This document shows, one piece after another, positions 8,449 to 39,302 of a stretch of DNA of 39,302 bases. The position numbers and the translations under genes were made by a program. The stretch comes from a virus: the IMG/VR virus record IMGVR_UViG_3300015263_000928, positions 1 to 39,302 of that record; one strand, 5' to 3'. The stretch's first letter is position 1; the number at the start of each line of letters is the position of its first letter. A model generated the notes under the pieces. That model did not search any database. It was not told where the DNA came from and saw only the letters and a program-made list of their open reading frames with translations.

Positions 8449-8684
8449 TCATCTCGCACTATCCCCTTGTGCCCGCACCGTCGGCAGACATACCGCCGCT
8501 CGTGGCCGTCGAGAAACCGTGGGTCATGGCCGTCCCGACAGAGCATCCGACCGAGAGCCTTGGGGTCGAAGTGACCCCACGCTATCAGCGCGAGGTAGAG
8601 CAGCCCGAGTAGCTTGAAAATCCCGATGGCGACTGTCACGGCCACCAACTCACTGTCGTTTGACATGCCGCCTCGCGGCGGCAT
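8445..8684 (-). CDS. Small membrane protein with C-terminal zinc ribbon (79 aa)
   Basis: A hydrophobic segment (LVAVTVAIGIFKLLGLLYLA) is followed by CRDGHDPRFLDGHERRYVC and CRRCGHKG, giving a Cys/His site typical of a short zinc ribbon. Two in-frame ATGs, 8684 and 8666, lie at the two sides of a perfect 12-bp hairpin, so initiation is probably structure-dependent. The GAGG before the second ATG is partly inside the stem. The gene overlaps the end of the methyltransferase gene by 49 bases with the upstream start, or 31 with the downstream one. Confidence 0.65.
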   Translation of the reverse strand: MPPRGGMSNDSELVAVTVAIGIFKLLGLLYLALIAWGHFDPKALGRMLCRDGHDPRFLDGHERRYVCRRCGHKGIVRDE

Positions 8685-9253
8685 GTCAGCGTCACCTCGA
8701 TCGTGCACATAGCCGTGGCGCCGCTGCTAGCGGCGCCGTACTTTGGTCGAGTCGAGCATATATGGAGCGCGTGTAGATTCACGCGCGACCACAGCGACTC
8801 GCGGCGATGTTTCCCTTCCAACGTCGTGAGCGGGCAGTGACACACCACCCGCGGCGCGAACTGAAGCGCGTGCATCACGTGAAGCGCGACCGCTCCGCCC
8901 TCGAAGGTAGGGTTCATGACAGCCACATCCGCGATGGCGTCGGCACGCGGCGGCTCGAGCGCCAAGAAATCAGCTTGCGCGACAGCAACTTCTGGATAGC
9001 CAGCAAACCGCTCTCGCGAGCTGCCGACCATCCTCGGGTCGATGTCATAAGCCTGGACACGGGCAACGCGCCCCGTGTCCAGGCATGCGCGGATGAGCGC
9101 GCCGTCGCCGCAACTCGGCTCGAGCACGTGCACACCTCCCGTCCGCACACCCACTGCGATTTCTGCGATTCTTGCTGCAATCTGCGGCGGAGTGAACCAC
9201 TGCGACAGCTCGTGCTTGCGCTGCTCGAAGCCCGGCAGATCGAGCGGGATCAT
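8636..9253 (-). CDS. DNA adenine-N6 methyltransferase-like protein (205 aa)
   Basis: A class I SAM-dependent methyltransferase. The N-terminus QWFTPPQIAARI is typical of N6-adenine enzymes; motif I is LEPSCGDG (44-51), an acidic SAM-contact follows (YDIDP, 69-73), then ADF (94-96), and the catalytic motif IV appears as NPTF (114-117) where NPPF/NPPY is usual. It probably methylates adenine in DNA, protecting phage DNA from host restriction or marking replication. No restriction partner is nearby. At 205 aa it is short and lacks an obvious target-recognition domain. Start ATG 9253 overlaps the upstream stop (ATGA). Confidence 0.85.
   Translation of the reverse strand: MIPLDLPGFEQRKHELSQWFTPPQIAARIAEIAVGVRTGGVHVLEPSCGDGALIRACLDTGRVARVQAYDIDPRMVGSSRERFAGYPEVAVAQADFLALEPPRADAIADVAVMNPTFEGGAVALHVMHALQFAPRVVCHCPLTTLEGKHRRESLWSRVNLHALHICSTRPKYGAASSGATAMCTIEVTLTCRREAACQTTVSWWP
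8661..8688 (-). promoter_or_regulatory. Perfect 12-bp hairpin over alternative start codons
   Basis: Arms 8661-8672 and 8677-8688 with a 4-base loop. In the minus-strand RNA it lies inside the methyltransferase 3' coding end and contains both candidate ATGs of the following zinc-ribbon gene. It could hide the ribosome site until ribosomes translating the upstream gene open it. Confidence 0.55.
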
Positions 9254-9696: not shown

Positions 9697-10136
9697 CGTA
9701 ACCTCCCAGTTCCTATTAGTTGGTCGTCACACCGGCCTATGCCCCGTCGGTTGAACTCATTGGGGCCATGCAGAATCCACGCACATACAGCGTCGCAAAC
9801 GTGCTTGAACGCCTGTGGCAGGTTGTCGTGTGCGTCGAGCCGCCCCGGGCTGACGCGCACGAACTCTACCCCCGCAATCGCGTCACGGTCTACAGCCCGC
9901 AGGTTCGTGCGGAGCAGTAGCAGTGTAGACGCGATCTGCTTGTCTGCAGCGGCGGCGCGCGCATATCTGTTCCCGTTCGCGTTGTCGCTCTCGACGCGAA
10001 TGGGAGCGCGAACGTGCCACACCCCCGCGTCGTACCAGATCTCCTGATCCAACATTCGTCTGGGCGCGGCGGGCGCGCGCAGACGCGCGGCGGAGCGCTT
10101 CCGGGCTCGATTCGGCGGCGGGAATGTCATTCGCAT
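9594..10136 (-). CDS. rusA: RusA-like Holliday junction resolvase (180 aa)
   Basis: The segment SPGRLDAHDNLPQAFKHVCD with Asp101, Asp104-Asn105 and Asp115, followed by GIGRCDDQLIG with Asp137-Asp138, matches the acidic signature of RusA endonucleases, and the end (MTIGNEHGIELRLRL) fits the last strand of the family. Such enzymes cut four-way junctions during recombination or before packaging. It is longer than E. coli RusA (120 aa), with extra sequence at the N-terminus and a Ser-rich end. Start ATG 10136 lies eight bases after GGAGG; ATG 10130 overlaps the upstream stop as the alternative. Confidence 0.8.
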   Translation of the reverse strand: MRMTFPPPNRARKRSAARLRAPAAPRRMLDQEIWYDAGVWHVRAPIRVESDNANGNRYARAAAADKQIASTLLLLRTNLRAVDRDAIAGVEFVRVSPGRLDAHDNLPQAFKHVCDAVCAWILHGPNEFNRRGIGRCDDQLIGTGRLRCVYSQMTIGNEHGIELRLRLTSQRSSTVEQSSS

Positions 10137-10420: not shown

Positions 10421-10941
10421 CGCGCCCACCATCTCACTGCAGCCTGAACCTGGCGCTCGCGCGTGTCTGACGCTGGCGACGCTGACGCCGTCATCTGCCA
10501 GCGTGCTGCGTGCCACCTTTTCAACCTCTCCGCGTATTTCGCACACGCCTCGTCGTCGGGATAGCGCCGCAACTCCGACTCAGCCCAGGCAGTGATCCTA
10601 AGCCGCCGCACAGCCTCGCCGATATCACGGCGCCGCTGCGTCTCTGCTGCGAGCCATTCGGCGAACTCCGCGCGGAATTCCTCCGGAACTGCCGCGCCCG
10701 CATGCCAGCGCGGAAGAAATCCGCGGAGCTCGTCTGAGCACGCGAACGGCGGCGCTACTGCAGGCGGCGCCAGGCGCCGCCGCGTGGCTTCGTCTGCGAT
10801 GTATCGACAGACGTCTAGCGCAACCTCGCGAGTGTCCACTCGACAGCCACCGCCCTGCGGCGGCGGCCCTCCTAGCTCGCTCGCGGCGAGCACCGGCTGC
10901 GTTTCAACGGCCCTCTGTTCCTGTCCCCGAAGCTGTCCCAT
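10417..10941 (-). CDS. Hypothetical protein downstream of the replication initiator (174 aa)
   Basis: ATG 10941 has GGGAGG six bases upstream and lies 38 bases inside the initiator gene. The protein is mostly helical and charged (EEFRAEFAEWLAAETQRRRD). Its position after an O-like initiator is that of the lambda P helicase loader, but no ATP-binding or DnaC-like motif is visible, so a loader role is only positional inference. It is coupled to the following zinc protein. Confidence 0.65.
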   Translation of the reverse strand: MGQLRGQEQRAVETQPVLAASELGGPPPQGGGCRVDTREVALDVCRYIADEATRRRLAPPAVAPPFACSDELRGFLPRWHAGAAVPEEFRAEFAEWLAAETQRRRDIGEAVRRLRITAWAESELRRYPDDEACAKYAERLKRWHAARWQMTASASPASDTRERQVQAAVRWWAR

Positions 10942-11944
10942 GTCTTGCCTCCCAGTCCTGTCGGTCGGCGGGCGAAAGGCTCGCCAACCACGCCTGTGTT
11001 TGCTCGCCGAGCACCCCAAGTTTGGGGGGTCGGCATGTGCGCGGGGTACGCCGTGCGTACCGCCGCAGGTTGCTCGCCAGATTCCCCAACCCGGGACGTT
11101 CCGACGGCTCAAGCTTGTTGATCCAGGGGTCTGCCAGCCAAGCGCCTACGAGCCTCTCTACGGCCCGCTCGTACGCTTCCCCGGATGACCCCCCCGCCTC
11201 TACCGCTGCCGCGTCACTGATCGACCGGCAGGCGGGTTCCTCGCGCCCCGGATGGCCGAGCCCGAGCGCAGGGAACCCGCGAAGACGCTCGGCCACCCTC
11301 CAAACGACGAGCCAGGGTTCCCTGATTGGGGACACGTCGGGAGGCGCCAGCCCAGCCGGCTCGGGCGGCACAGGCGGGCGCTCAAAACGATCGCAAGTGA
11401 TCGCGCCCTGGCGCGTCGGCGTAGATCTCTTCTCTTCTCTCTCTTCTTTCTCTTCTTTCTGCAAAACCGAAGTGCCGTGATTACCGGTACTTATGTCAGA
11501 GTAGATCTCGGGTAGATCCGGGGTAGATCGGGGGTAGATCGGTGGTAGATCGGGGGTAGATCGGTGGTGGATCGGGGGTAGATCGGCGGTAGATCGGTGG
11601 TGGATCGGGGGTAGATCGGTGGTGGATGGCGGATGGAACGCGACCCTAATGTAGGAGGGTCCGACTTCGATCAGCCCTGCCCGCGCGGCCTCGTCTAGGG
11701 CTTTCGCCCAATTGCCCCTGTGAGGCCCGTCGATGCACAGGCTACGGCACACGCTGACTCGCCAGTCGCTCCCAGACCACGCGACCAAGTCGCCGCCGCC
11801 ACCCTGCTGCCCGTACGCGAGCGCAAACAGCTCGCTGTAGACAGAGCGCGCGAGGATATGCCGAAGCACGCCCCAGCCCGGGTGACGCACCCGCGGCAAG
11901 GGCACAAAATCGTACCCGACGCGCGCTCTGCCGCCGCGCGTCAT
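10904..11944 (-). CDS. O-like phage replication initiator (346 aa)
   Basis: Start ATG 11944 overlaps the previous TGA. Residues 10-105 (YDFVPLPRVRHPGWGVLRHI and LDEAARAGLIEVGPSYIRVA) look like the winged-helix DNA-binding part of phage replication proteins. Residues 107-150 are four copies of an 11-residue repeat of the type STPDLPPIYPR, encoded by the iterons. After an acidic-basic linker (QKEEKEEREEKR), the C-terminal part ends in a helical region containing LVGAWLADPWINKLEPSE. This is the order of lambda O: DNA-binding domain, origin inside the gene, partner-binding domain. It presumably binds the iterons and recruits the host helicase. No phage helicase or polymerase is seen. Confidence 0.78.
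   Translation of the reverse strand: MTRGGRARVGYDFVPLPRVRHPGWGVLRHILARSVYSELFALAYGQQGGGGDLVAWSGSDWRVSVCRSLCIDGPHRGNWAKALDEAARAGLIEVGPSYIRVAFHPPSTTDLPPIHHRSTADLPPIHHRSTPDLPPIYPRSTPDLPEIYSDISTGNHGTSVLQKEEKEEREEKRSTPTRQGAITCDRFERPPVPPEPAGLAPPDVSPIREPWLVVWRVAERLRGFPALGLGHPGREEPACRSISDAAAVEAGGSSGEAYERAVERLVGAWLADPWINKLEPSERPGLGNLASNLRRYARRTPRTCRPPKLGVLGEQTQAWLASLSPADRQDWEARHGTASGTGTEGR
11426..11632. other. Candidate replication origin inside the initiator gene
   Basis: Twelve tandem 11-bp units (consensus GTAGATCGGGG, variants GTGGATCGGGG and GTAGATCGGTG) fill 11501-11632 with exact 11-bp spacing, so equivalent bases lie near the same face of the helix. A pure pyrimidine run of 35 nt at 11426-11460 sits 40 bp away and is the least GC-rich, strand-asymmetric stretch nearby, as expected for an unwinding element. 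The layout mirrors the lambda origin in gene O. Confidence 0.72.
11501..11632 (+). repeat. 12 x 11-bp tandem iterons
   Basis: Twelve 11-bp units in direct order. The outer units (GTAGATCTCGG, GTAGATCCGGG and the last, GTGGATGGCGG) are the most diverged; the inner ones differ at one or two positions. Because 11 is not a multiple of three, the encoded peptide repeats every 33 bp, giving four 11-residue copies. Confidence 0.95.
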
Positions 11945-12288
11945 GACAGGCTGAGCTCCGTCTGCCTGTCGGCCTGCGTTACGGGTTCGGTCGCAAGGAT
12001 CTCTCCCGTATCCGCGCGATAAAGCGACCACGTCTCGTGTAGCTCGTCGACACTCCACCTACACCGGACGGGCCGCAACTCCCGTTTGCTCTCCACCTCC
12101 GTCGCCAAAACCTTGGCCCTGCGCGTTAGCGCGTCGATCTTCATTTTGAAATCGGCGGCAACGGCCTTTGCCTCGTCGCTGAGATCGTCTCGCTGGTTAC
12201 ACAACGCTGCGAGCTCGGCGCCCTTTACGCGCTGCTCTGCCGGCGTCAGATCCACAAATAGCTGCCGCTCCACATCTGGCCTTTGCAT
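11941..12288 (-). CDS. Conserved-type phage protein with coiled coil (115 aa)
   Basis: ATG 12288 lies six bases after GAGGTG; GTG 12297 is an alternative. The N-terminal two thirds form a coiled coil (GAELAALCNQRDDLSDEAKA). The end VRCRWSVDELHETWSLYRAD followed by TGEILATEPVTQADRQ has the RxDTGE pattern of a common uncharacterised phage protein found near replication and recombination genes. It is coupled to the initiator gene by ATGA. Function unknown. Confidence 0.75.
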   Translation of the reverse strand: MQRPDVERQLFVDLTPAEQRVKGAELAALCNQRDDLSDEAKAVAADFKMKIDALTRRAKVLATEVESKRELRPVRCRWSVDELHETWSLYRADTGEILATEPVTQADRQTELSLS

Positions 12289-12297
12289 CGCAATCAC

Positions 12298-12466
12298 CTC
12301 GTTCTCTGCTGGTTTGTTAAGGCGGACCGCACAGGCCCCTGCGCGCTACGAGAGCAGGGGGGACTGCTCCGGGGCAGCGGGGGCCTGTGCCAGTCCTCGA
12401 GCATGCGCCGCTTGGATGCGCACGCTCGACTCACACCCTGACTGTTCAGGGTGTGAGTCGAGCGTG
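12298..12466 (-). ncRNA. Structured 169-nt non-coding gap after the repressor gene
   Basis: No gene is visible. The gap holds a perfect 21-bp hairpin (12421-12466), a 9-bp outer pairing ACAGGCCCC / GGGGCCTGT (12331-12339 and 12380-12388) and within it a 7-bp stem CCCCTGC / GCAGGGG (12336-12342 and 12354-12360), which partly overlaps the outer pairing. It could be a terminator or antitermination region, a small RNA, or a DNA site. No U-tract follows the large stem in the minus direction. The RNA call is tentative. Confidence 0.4.
12421..12466 (-). terminator. Perfect 21-bp inverted repeat directly after the repressor stop
   Basis: Arms 12421-12441 and 12446-12466 are perfectly complementary around a 4-base loop (CTGT on the plus strand). 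The first arm begins at the base after the repressor TAA. The stem is long and GC-rich, so it should block or slow polymerase and protect the 3' end of the repressor message. The lack of a T-run leaves open a recombination or cruciform site. Confidence 0.55.
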
Positions 12467-12748
12467 TTATCCGCCGTCCGCCTGCGTGGGCGTGGGCTGC
12501 TGTTGCGACTTTCGCCGTACGCGGGCTTGCGCAGCGGCCCACTGCACGGCAGTGACCACAGTAGACGCTCGCATTTTGCGGAGAGTCCGCTCGATAGCTA
12601 CCGCCGTAGCCGTGCCCGCTAGATTCTCCCCCCGCTCCAGCTTCGAGAACTGCGCCTGAGTCACCCCGCACAGCCGTGCGAGCTGTTCCTGGCTCAGTTC
12701 GAGCGACACCCGCGCGCGACGCAGCCGATCTCCCAAGTCGATTTCCAT
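12467..12748 (-). CDS. XRE-family repressor-like regulator (93 aa)
   Basis: A classic HTH_XRE domain: LGDRLRRARVSLELSQEQLA, then RLCGVTQAQFSKLERGENLA, residues 5-44, with the LSQEQLA and TQAQFSKLERG helices of cI/Cro-like proteins. There is no C-terminal peptidase domain, so it would not be RecA-cleaved as lambda CI is. It sits beside divergent promoters and is the first gene of the leftward block, so it probably controls its own promoter and the opposite one. The -10 box ends ten bases before the ATG, so the message is probably leaderless. Confidence 0.85.
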   Translation of the reverse strand: MEIDLGDRLRRARVSLELSQEQLARLCGVTQAQFSKLERGENLAGTATAVAIERTLRKMRASTVVTAVQWAAAQARVRRKSQQQPTPTQADGG

Positions 12749-38867: not shown

Positions 38868-39302
38868 GTCGATGTCGATAACACCATTCAGCGGAACGTT
38901 CAGCGAACCGCTCTCGAGGCCCGGTTCCGAGCGTCGCTCTCTCCGTAGCCGTTCTGCCCGGAGGAAATGGTCAGCCTCCCCCGTGCTCTTGCATGCCCAA
39001 TTGCGCCGAGAGATCCAGTCGTCCCCGTGGGTAGACCCTGCCACGGGGAAATAGGCCTGTCTTTCCTCGTTCCAAACGAAGTCTGTAGACACAACAGCAG
39101 CGCGGGGCGCCGCAACCTCCCGCCCGCGGGGGCCTTCCGCAGCTTTACGGGATGCGGCGTCGATAACACCATTCAGCGGAACGTTCAGCGAACCGCTCTC
39201 GAGGCCCGGTTCCGAGCGTGGTGGACAGGAACATATGTGGTACCCACAGCGCGAGCATGCCGTGCGATGTTCGAGCAAGCTCGCGGCGGGGGTTTCGCCA
39301 AC
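38856..39302 (-). CDS. 3' part of the 181-aa protein spanning the circular join
   Basis: The rest of the gene that starts at 243 on the circle; bases 39159-39302 duplicate 1-144. This part holds a copy of SEPGLESGSLNVPLNGVID, a middle region with aromatic residues (STDFVWNEERQAYFPVAGST, DDWISRRNWACKS) and a second identical copy of that segment just before the stop IDWTR. Removing one repeat unit and the 224 bp between the copies would delete 285 bp (95 codons) in frame, leaving an 86-aa protein. No recognised family. Confidence 0.75.
   Translation of the reverse strand, partial: VGETPAASLLEHRTACSRCGYHICSCPPRSEPGLESGSLNVPLNGVIDAASRKAAEGPRGREVAAPRAAVVSTDFVWNEERQAYFPVAGSTHGDDWISRRNWACKSTGEADHFLRAERLRRERRSEPGLESGSLNVPLNGVIDIDWTR
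38874..38934 (-). repeat. 61-bp direct repeat, second copy
   Basis: Identical to 39159-39219 (and 1-61), 285 bp apart and in the same reading frame of the join-spanning gene, so it produces two identical 20-residue peptides in one protein. Confidence 0.95.
39159..39302. repeat. Right copy of 144-bp terminal direct repeat
   Basis: Identical to bases 1-144. Its first 61 bases also occur at 38874-38934, so this segment is present once as a terminal repeat and partly again 285 bp away. Confidence 0.95.

Follow-up and report, generated by a model that had tools for sequence, protein, structure and literature searches.

Twelve contiguous 11-bp iterons inside a putative initiator gene form a probable replication origin in an unclassified small phage

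The window analyzed here is the whole of IMG/VR record IMGVR_UViG_3300015263_000928 (39,302 nt), from an unclassified small phage. An early gene cluster on its minus strand runs from a gene for an XRE-type helix-turn-helix regulator (12467 to 12748; recognized by reading the translation by eye), through a 118-aa gene of unknown function that matches phrog_12688 (11941 to 12297), to a 346-aa open reading frame (ORF) that we call the putative replication initiator gene (10904 to 11944, ATG at 11944). The start of the initiator gene overlaps the 118-aa gene in an ATGA, and codon-position GC in its N-terminal part (0.68/0.55/0.80) is gene-like. The recT gene lies just beyond the initiator gene and is divergently transcribed. 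A perfect 21-bp inverted repeat with a 4-nt loop (12421 to 12466) lies after the regulator gene, upstream of the initiator operon; since no T-run follows it, it could be an operator or attenuator just as well as a terminator.

The ends of the record carry an exact 144-bp direct terminal repeat (1 to 144 and 39159 to 39302), so the record probably represents an entire phage genome, circular or terminally redundant, of ~39.2 kb and 64% GC. Genes for a terminase, a portal protein, a major head protein, and a RecT-like protein were recognizable; many other scanned genes had no match at all, and the early genes were mostly matchless. Walker-A motifs were found in two long ORFs, one of which is the terminase; the other is found opposite the portal gene, on the complementary strand, and is probably not a real gene. 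Because the terminase is the only convincing Walker-A ORF in the genome, the phage is presumed to rely on a host helicase and loader. A small DNA methyltransferase-like gene (205 aa; 8636 to 9253, minus strand) is much shorter than the phage methyltransferase families that it matched. No Rfam families or tRNA genes were found in the window.

Twelve contiguous 11-bp iterons with the consensus GTAGATCGGGG (CCCCGATCTAC on the gene strand) lie within the initiator gene at 11501 to 11632 (given on the plus strand). Tandem Repeats Finder reported a period of 11 with 11.5 copies and zero indels (11501 to 11627), and a second repeat search kept the 11-bp register throughout. Reading by eye gave 12 units, with GTRGATC in units 1 to 11 and a degenerate unit 12, GTGGATGGCGG. 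The sequence-only reading had counted exactly 12 contiguous direct units, and this count was borne out; its wider range, 11426 to 11632, also took in a 35-nt pyrimidine tract and a spacer, which are not repeat units. The array contains 11 consecutive GATC sites at 11-bp spacing; 300 dinucleotide-block shuffles gave at most 3 in a row, and no other tested spacing gave so long a chain except 22 bp, the double of 11. The genome holds 19 GTRGATC sites, 12 of them in or beside the array. Hairpin formation was rejected, as the array folds worse than its shuffles. Among the initiator genes of the present survey, this array is the longest.

The array interrupts the 346-codon gene with the frame open, starting at codon 101 to 104. 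The 11-bp DNA period gives a peptide period of 11 residues, and translation of the gene confirmed the previously noted 4 x 11-residue repeat (STTDLPPIHHR-STADLPPIHHR-STPDLPPIYPR-STPDLPEIY).

Directly abutting the array, 3′ in gene orientation, is a candidate DNA unwinding element (11421 to 11500) that is the lowest-GC 80-bp window of the genome (42.5% GC against 64.4% overall). Within it is a 35-nt homopurine tract on the gene strand (11426 to 11460, minus strand), which codes for KEEKEEREEKR. No other homopurine/homopyrimidine run in the genome is as long as this one, which is pyrimidine on the plus strand; the second longest has 14 nt. The order in gene orientation is therefore N-terminal domain, iterons, AT-rich/purine tract, and C-terminal domain. 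A lone copy of the unit, GTAGATCTC (11421 to 11429, plus strand), additional to the 12 counted earlier, lies across the AT-rich tract from the array, at a distance of 80 bp from unit 1; as part of an origin it is suggestive only and could be due to chance. GC skew, which had been put forward as a check on where replication starts, showed no switch or turn at the array and gave no origin signal.

The ~104-aa N-terminal domain (11633 to 11944, minus strand) is presumed to bind DNA, and the C-terminal domain (10904 to 11425, minus strand) is predicted to be helical. Single-sequence AlphaFold models, made without an alignment, were poor (pLDDT, 41 to 44). The N-terminal order of elements, H-H-E-E-H-H-E-E, in a low-confidence model (pLDDT, 41) is compatible with a putative winged helix. 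The C-terminal domain was modeled as helices only, also with low confidence, and presumably contacts the host helicase or its loader.

No homolog of the protein was found in phages or plasmids by tblastn or in viral contigs, and no family match was found in Pfam, PHROGs, or PDB sequences. The C-terminal sequence AWLADPWINKLEPS was likened to the O/DnaD motif DWASKDSFWHRNILSP, a resemblance that profile tests rejected. For O-like homology in the C-terminal W..FW..NILSP..LR region, 97 of 500 shuffles outscored the window protein against a hidden Markov model of ten O/DnaD-like C termini, and hhalign against the O/DnaD-like C-terminal profile returned a probability of 0.2%. Ranked among its own shuffles, the protein came 278th of 835 (C-terminal part) and 670th of 816 (N-terminal part) for DUF1376/primosomal proteins, 271st of 590 (N-terminal domain) for DnaD-like helicase loaders/replisome organizers, and 555th of 794 (N-terminal part) and 831st of 991 (C-terminal part) for actinophage replication-initiation (HNH) proteins. 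By these tests the protein appears to belong to none of the DUF1376, DnaD-like, O-like, or actinophage families and to resemble them by architecture only. Since it has no detectable similarity to any tested initiator family, the label "initiator" rests on context and architecture and is putative. The proposed lambda-O-style origin is well supported as anatomy but not supported as a sequence relationship to lambda O.

Viral contigs were scanned, ignoring genes, for five GATC sites at 11-bp spacing. This main scan returned 74 loci, 48 of them distinct, and 26 of the 48 lay in ORFs of at least 120 aa. Control scans returned 48 loci for GATC at 10-bp spacing (6 of 28 distinct loci in ORFs) and 52 for GTAC at 11-bp spacing (12 of 38). 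The existence of period-11 GTAC arrays indicates that the GATC core itself is not required. Ten array ORFs were checked singly, nine from the GATC/11-bp scan and one (L005) from a TAGATC scan. All matched PHROGs annotated as primosomal, DnaD-like, O-like, replication initiation, or, for two of actinobacterial type, HNH plus replication initiation, a ratio that is no estimate because the ORFs were chosen for their initiator-like look; five contained Pfam DUF1376. When array ORFs were scanned in bulk, replication families were many in the GATC/11-bp set and few in the pooled controls. The array starts at codon 105 to 130 in most array-bearing genes (73 to 262 overall). In 15 of 17 array-bearing genes, no more than about 140 bp separates the end of the array from the start of the most AT-rich 80 bp. 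This set includes the window gene, and some of its loci are relatives, so that it does not represent 17 independent events.

Arrays of other kinds were also encountered. Several viral contigs carry 11-bp TAGATC arrays outside long ORFs (L006 8083 to 8176, L012 199 to 301, L010, L018, L020, and L022), possibly stand-alone origins or partition sites. A scan of bacterial genomes for GTRGATC gave mostly intergenic arrays and no relative of the window initiator. Within single bacterial genomes, an 11-bp array (GTAGATCAACC or GTAGATCCTTT) is found at numerous separate loci, where it forms part of a longer conserved sequence, in Bacteroidetes MEOA01 contigs (L196, L203, L212, L215, L222, L235, L236, and L247) and Tannerellaceae JAIRYL01 contigs (L208, L210, L213, L239, L246, and L253); these are a dispersed repeat family with no assigned function. 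A relative of the phage by terminase (L090, record G001; 48% identity) has no match to the window initiator. At 9720 to 10030, in the gap before a DnaB-like helicase gene, it has numerous 11-bp GGGAACCGATC units that run in both orientations, a further cluster of one-turn repeats within a different replication module.

Taken together, the DNA-level constraint on the units described below, the adjacent AT-rich/homopurine tract, the early-gene position, and the independent recovery of initiator genes of the same design give good support to an in-gene origin. We conclude that the array is very probably the binding-site block of a replication origin inside its own putative initiator gene. By its sequence features the locus would belong to the functional class of in-gene iteron origins: tandem iterons lie in frame inside the 346-aa ORF, and the AT-rich element expected beside such iterons is present.

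A site of another kind, bound by a repressor or a ParR/ParB-like protein, could instead control the early operon or segregate the genome in a centromere-like manner, with replication starting elsewhere. Tandem short direct repeats do serve in partition, as with the iterons of a Bacillus phage to which a ParG-like adaptor has been proposed to bind (PMC6669507), and many of the 11-bp arrays from the scans are noncoding. However, the array lies deep within a gene rather than at a promoter and adjoins the strongest AT-rich tract of the genome, relatives embedded in ORFs are often initiator genes, and no partition gene was recognized among the genes scanned. We therefore consider a regulatory or partition role unlikely.

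The repeat might also be a by-product, either of selection for the 11-residue peptide STxDLPPIxxR as a linker or protein-binding region or of neutral tandem expansion. The frame is open through the array, four regular peptide units are encoded, mutation by tandem expansion is common, and the near identity of 33-bp blocks points to recent duplication. The pattern of changes argues against this explanation. The 13 deviations from the unit consensus are confined to columns 3, 7, 8, 9, and 10 (5 of 11 columns), a clustering with a P value of about 0.004 to 0.006 by simulation. Each unit is read in three frames, and which DNA columns are fixed does not depend on the frame. Of the 13 deviations, 4 are synonymous (31%, compared with 28.5% expected for random change), so that changes are mostly nonsynonymous at a neutral ratio, and none of the 28 wobble sites in the seven core columns has changed. 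Similar arrays are known, moreover, with stop codons or without an ORF. Because deviations track DNA columns and not codons, the synonymous share is near random, and the wobble core is intact, the repeat is a DNA signal and the constraint acts on the DNA unit, although recent duplication could explain part of the uniformity of the units. An origin in the peptide or in neutral expansion is very unlikely on this evidence.

That the array is an origin whose units are bound by a host protein or another phage protein, such as a DnaA-like or GATC-sensing factor, is most improbable: GATC cores do recur in arrays of unrelated phages, but GATC was the search criterion, so this recurrence is partly selection, and the core varies (GTAC in some arrays, further cores in named phages), which would be expected were each initiator to recognize an iteron of its own.

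If the array is the origin of the phage, protein binding, melting, helicase recruitment, and firing would, we infer, all occur there. Molecules of the putative initiator would occupy neighboring 11-bp units in a row, and the units should lie on one face of the helix, since 11 bp is about one turn. The nucleoprotein block would strain the adjacent 80-bp AT-rich, purine-asymmetric tract until it melts, and the C-terminal domain would then recruit the host replicative helicase.

More tentatively, contiguous one-turn 11-bp arrays near codon 105 to 130, followed by an AT/purine tract, may be a recurrent, convergent origin design of several unrelated initiator families, with the orphan initiator of the window as the extreme case; we consider this view somewhat less likely than not. 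If it holds, these origins would share a common mode of assembly, a continuous same-face initiator filament unlike the spaced dimer sites of lambda, and how initiators open DNA on one-turn arrays as opposed to spaced iterons becomes a testable question. In the present case a likely origin and a likely initiator were located from DNA anatomy alone, in a phage whose early genes are mostly matchless. The same rule (a one-turn tandem array near codon 100 to 130, followed by an AT/purine tract) retrieved several unrelated initiator families without a protein search and could aid origin annotation in uncultured phages.

Published work supports an origin within the initiator gene in lambda, in SPP1, and, through genetics, in 80alpha (PMC7466680, PMC5499656). 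Initiators of named phages were picked by protein similarity, blind to repeats, and then tested for an internal period. Tandem repeats were found in a codon range similar to that of the window gene, several with period 11: Staphylococcus phages 2339 (6 units) and JS01 (8 units), and Listeria phage P9 and Pseudomonas phage Orisa03 (4 to 5 units). Period 11 was weaker in the O genes of HK620 and HK022. Other periods were near 21 to 24 (phi80, Vibrio phages, and GF-2), 12 (Mulock), and 15 (TP901-1 and Tuc2009), and the period test detected no significant internal repeat in several Paenibacillus phage and actinophage initiators. Since contiguous 11-bp spacing recurs in initiator genes of named and many metagenomic phages, it is one of a few recurring arrangements and is not unique to the window. 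The contrast drawn earlier between contiguous units and those of lambda was correct, but the novelty that it implied was not supported. A literature search largely confined to open-access papers found no description of an 11-bp iteron class as such.

In lambda, the origin lies midway along gene O and comprises iterons and an AT-rich tract (PMC7466680), and the order seen here, with iterons and then an apparent unwinding element between the halves of the initiator gene, matches the lambda ori layout. Gene O of lambda and gene 15 of phi80 resemble the window gene in that iterons occupy the middle of the gene, near a comparable codon, and precede an AT-rich tract (PMC7466680). They differ in having four 15- to 18-bp iterons spaced 20 to 24 bp apart, about two turns (20, 24, and 23 bp for the 18-bp iterons of lambda), where the window has 12 contiguous 11-bp units, and their proteins have no homology to the window protein.

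In Staphylococcus phages 2339 and JS01, 6 and 8 contiguous 11-bp units at codon 114 to 115 are directly followed by an AT/purine-rich tract, as in the window. Unlike those of the window, their units are AT-rich (GACAACAAATC and CAACATCAATC), their initiators are recognizable by sequence similarity, and their lone extra unit is located on the 5′ side of the array, not across the AT-rich tract. Two initiator genes of staphylococcal phages (L309 1167 and L311 1169) have one extra unit 78 to 79 bp upstream of the array, compared with 80 bp on the opposite side in the window. P9 and Orisa03 likewise have 4 to 5 units spaced by 11 bp in the initiator gene, and the HK620 and HK022 O genes have a pair of neighboring 11-bp-spaced units, repeated once, that overlaps the annotated rep_origin of HK620; in all four the units are fewer or interrupted and differ in sequence, and the initiators are recognizable.

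Metagenomic DUF1376/primosomal genes and actinophage HNH/replication-initiation genes (for example, L024, L054, L058, and L080) carry 5 to 8 contiguous 11-bp GATC units, usually with an AT-rich or purine tract nearby, as in the window, but their arrays are shorter and their proteins have no sequence homology to the window protein. In 80alpha (ORF20) and in TP901-1 and Tuc2009 (rep in both), the origin also lies within the initiator gene; it is annotated so for 80alpha and Tuc2009, and for 80alpha, genetics indicated an origin within the replisome-organizer gene (PMC5499656). Their repeats are spaced by 15 bp (TP901-1), 10 and 15 bp (Tuc2009), and 15 and 30 bp (80alpha), compared with 11 bp in the window. 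The layout is a known one used by many phages, and what sets this locus apart is the length of the array and the orphan initiator that carries it.
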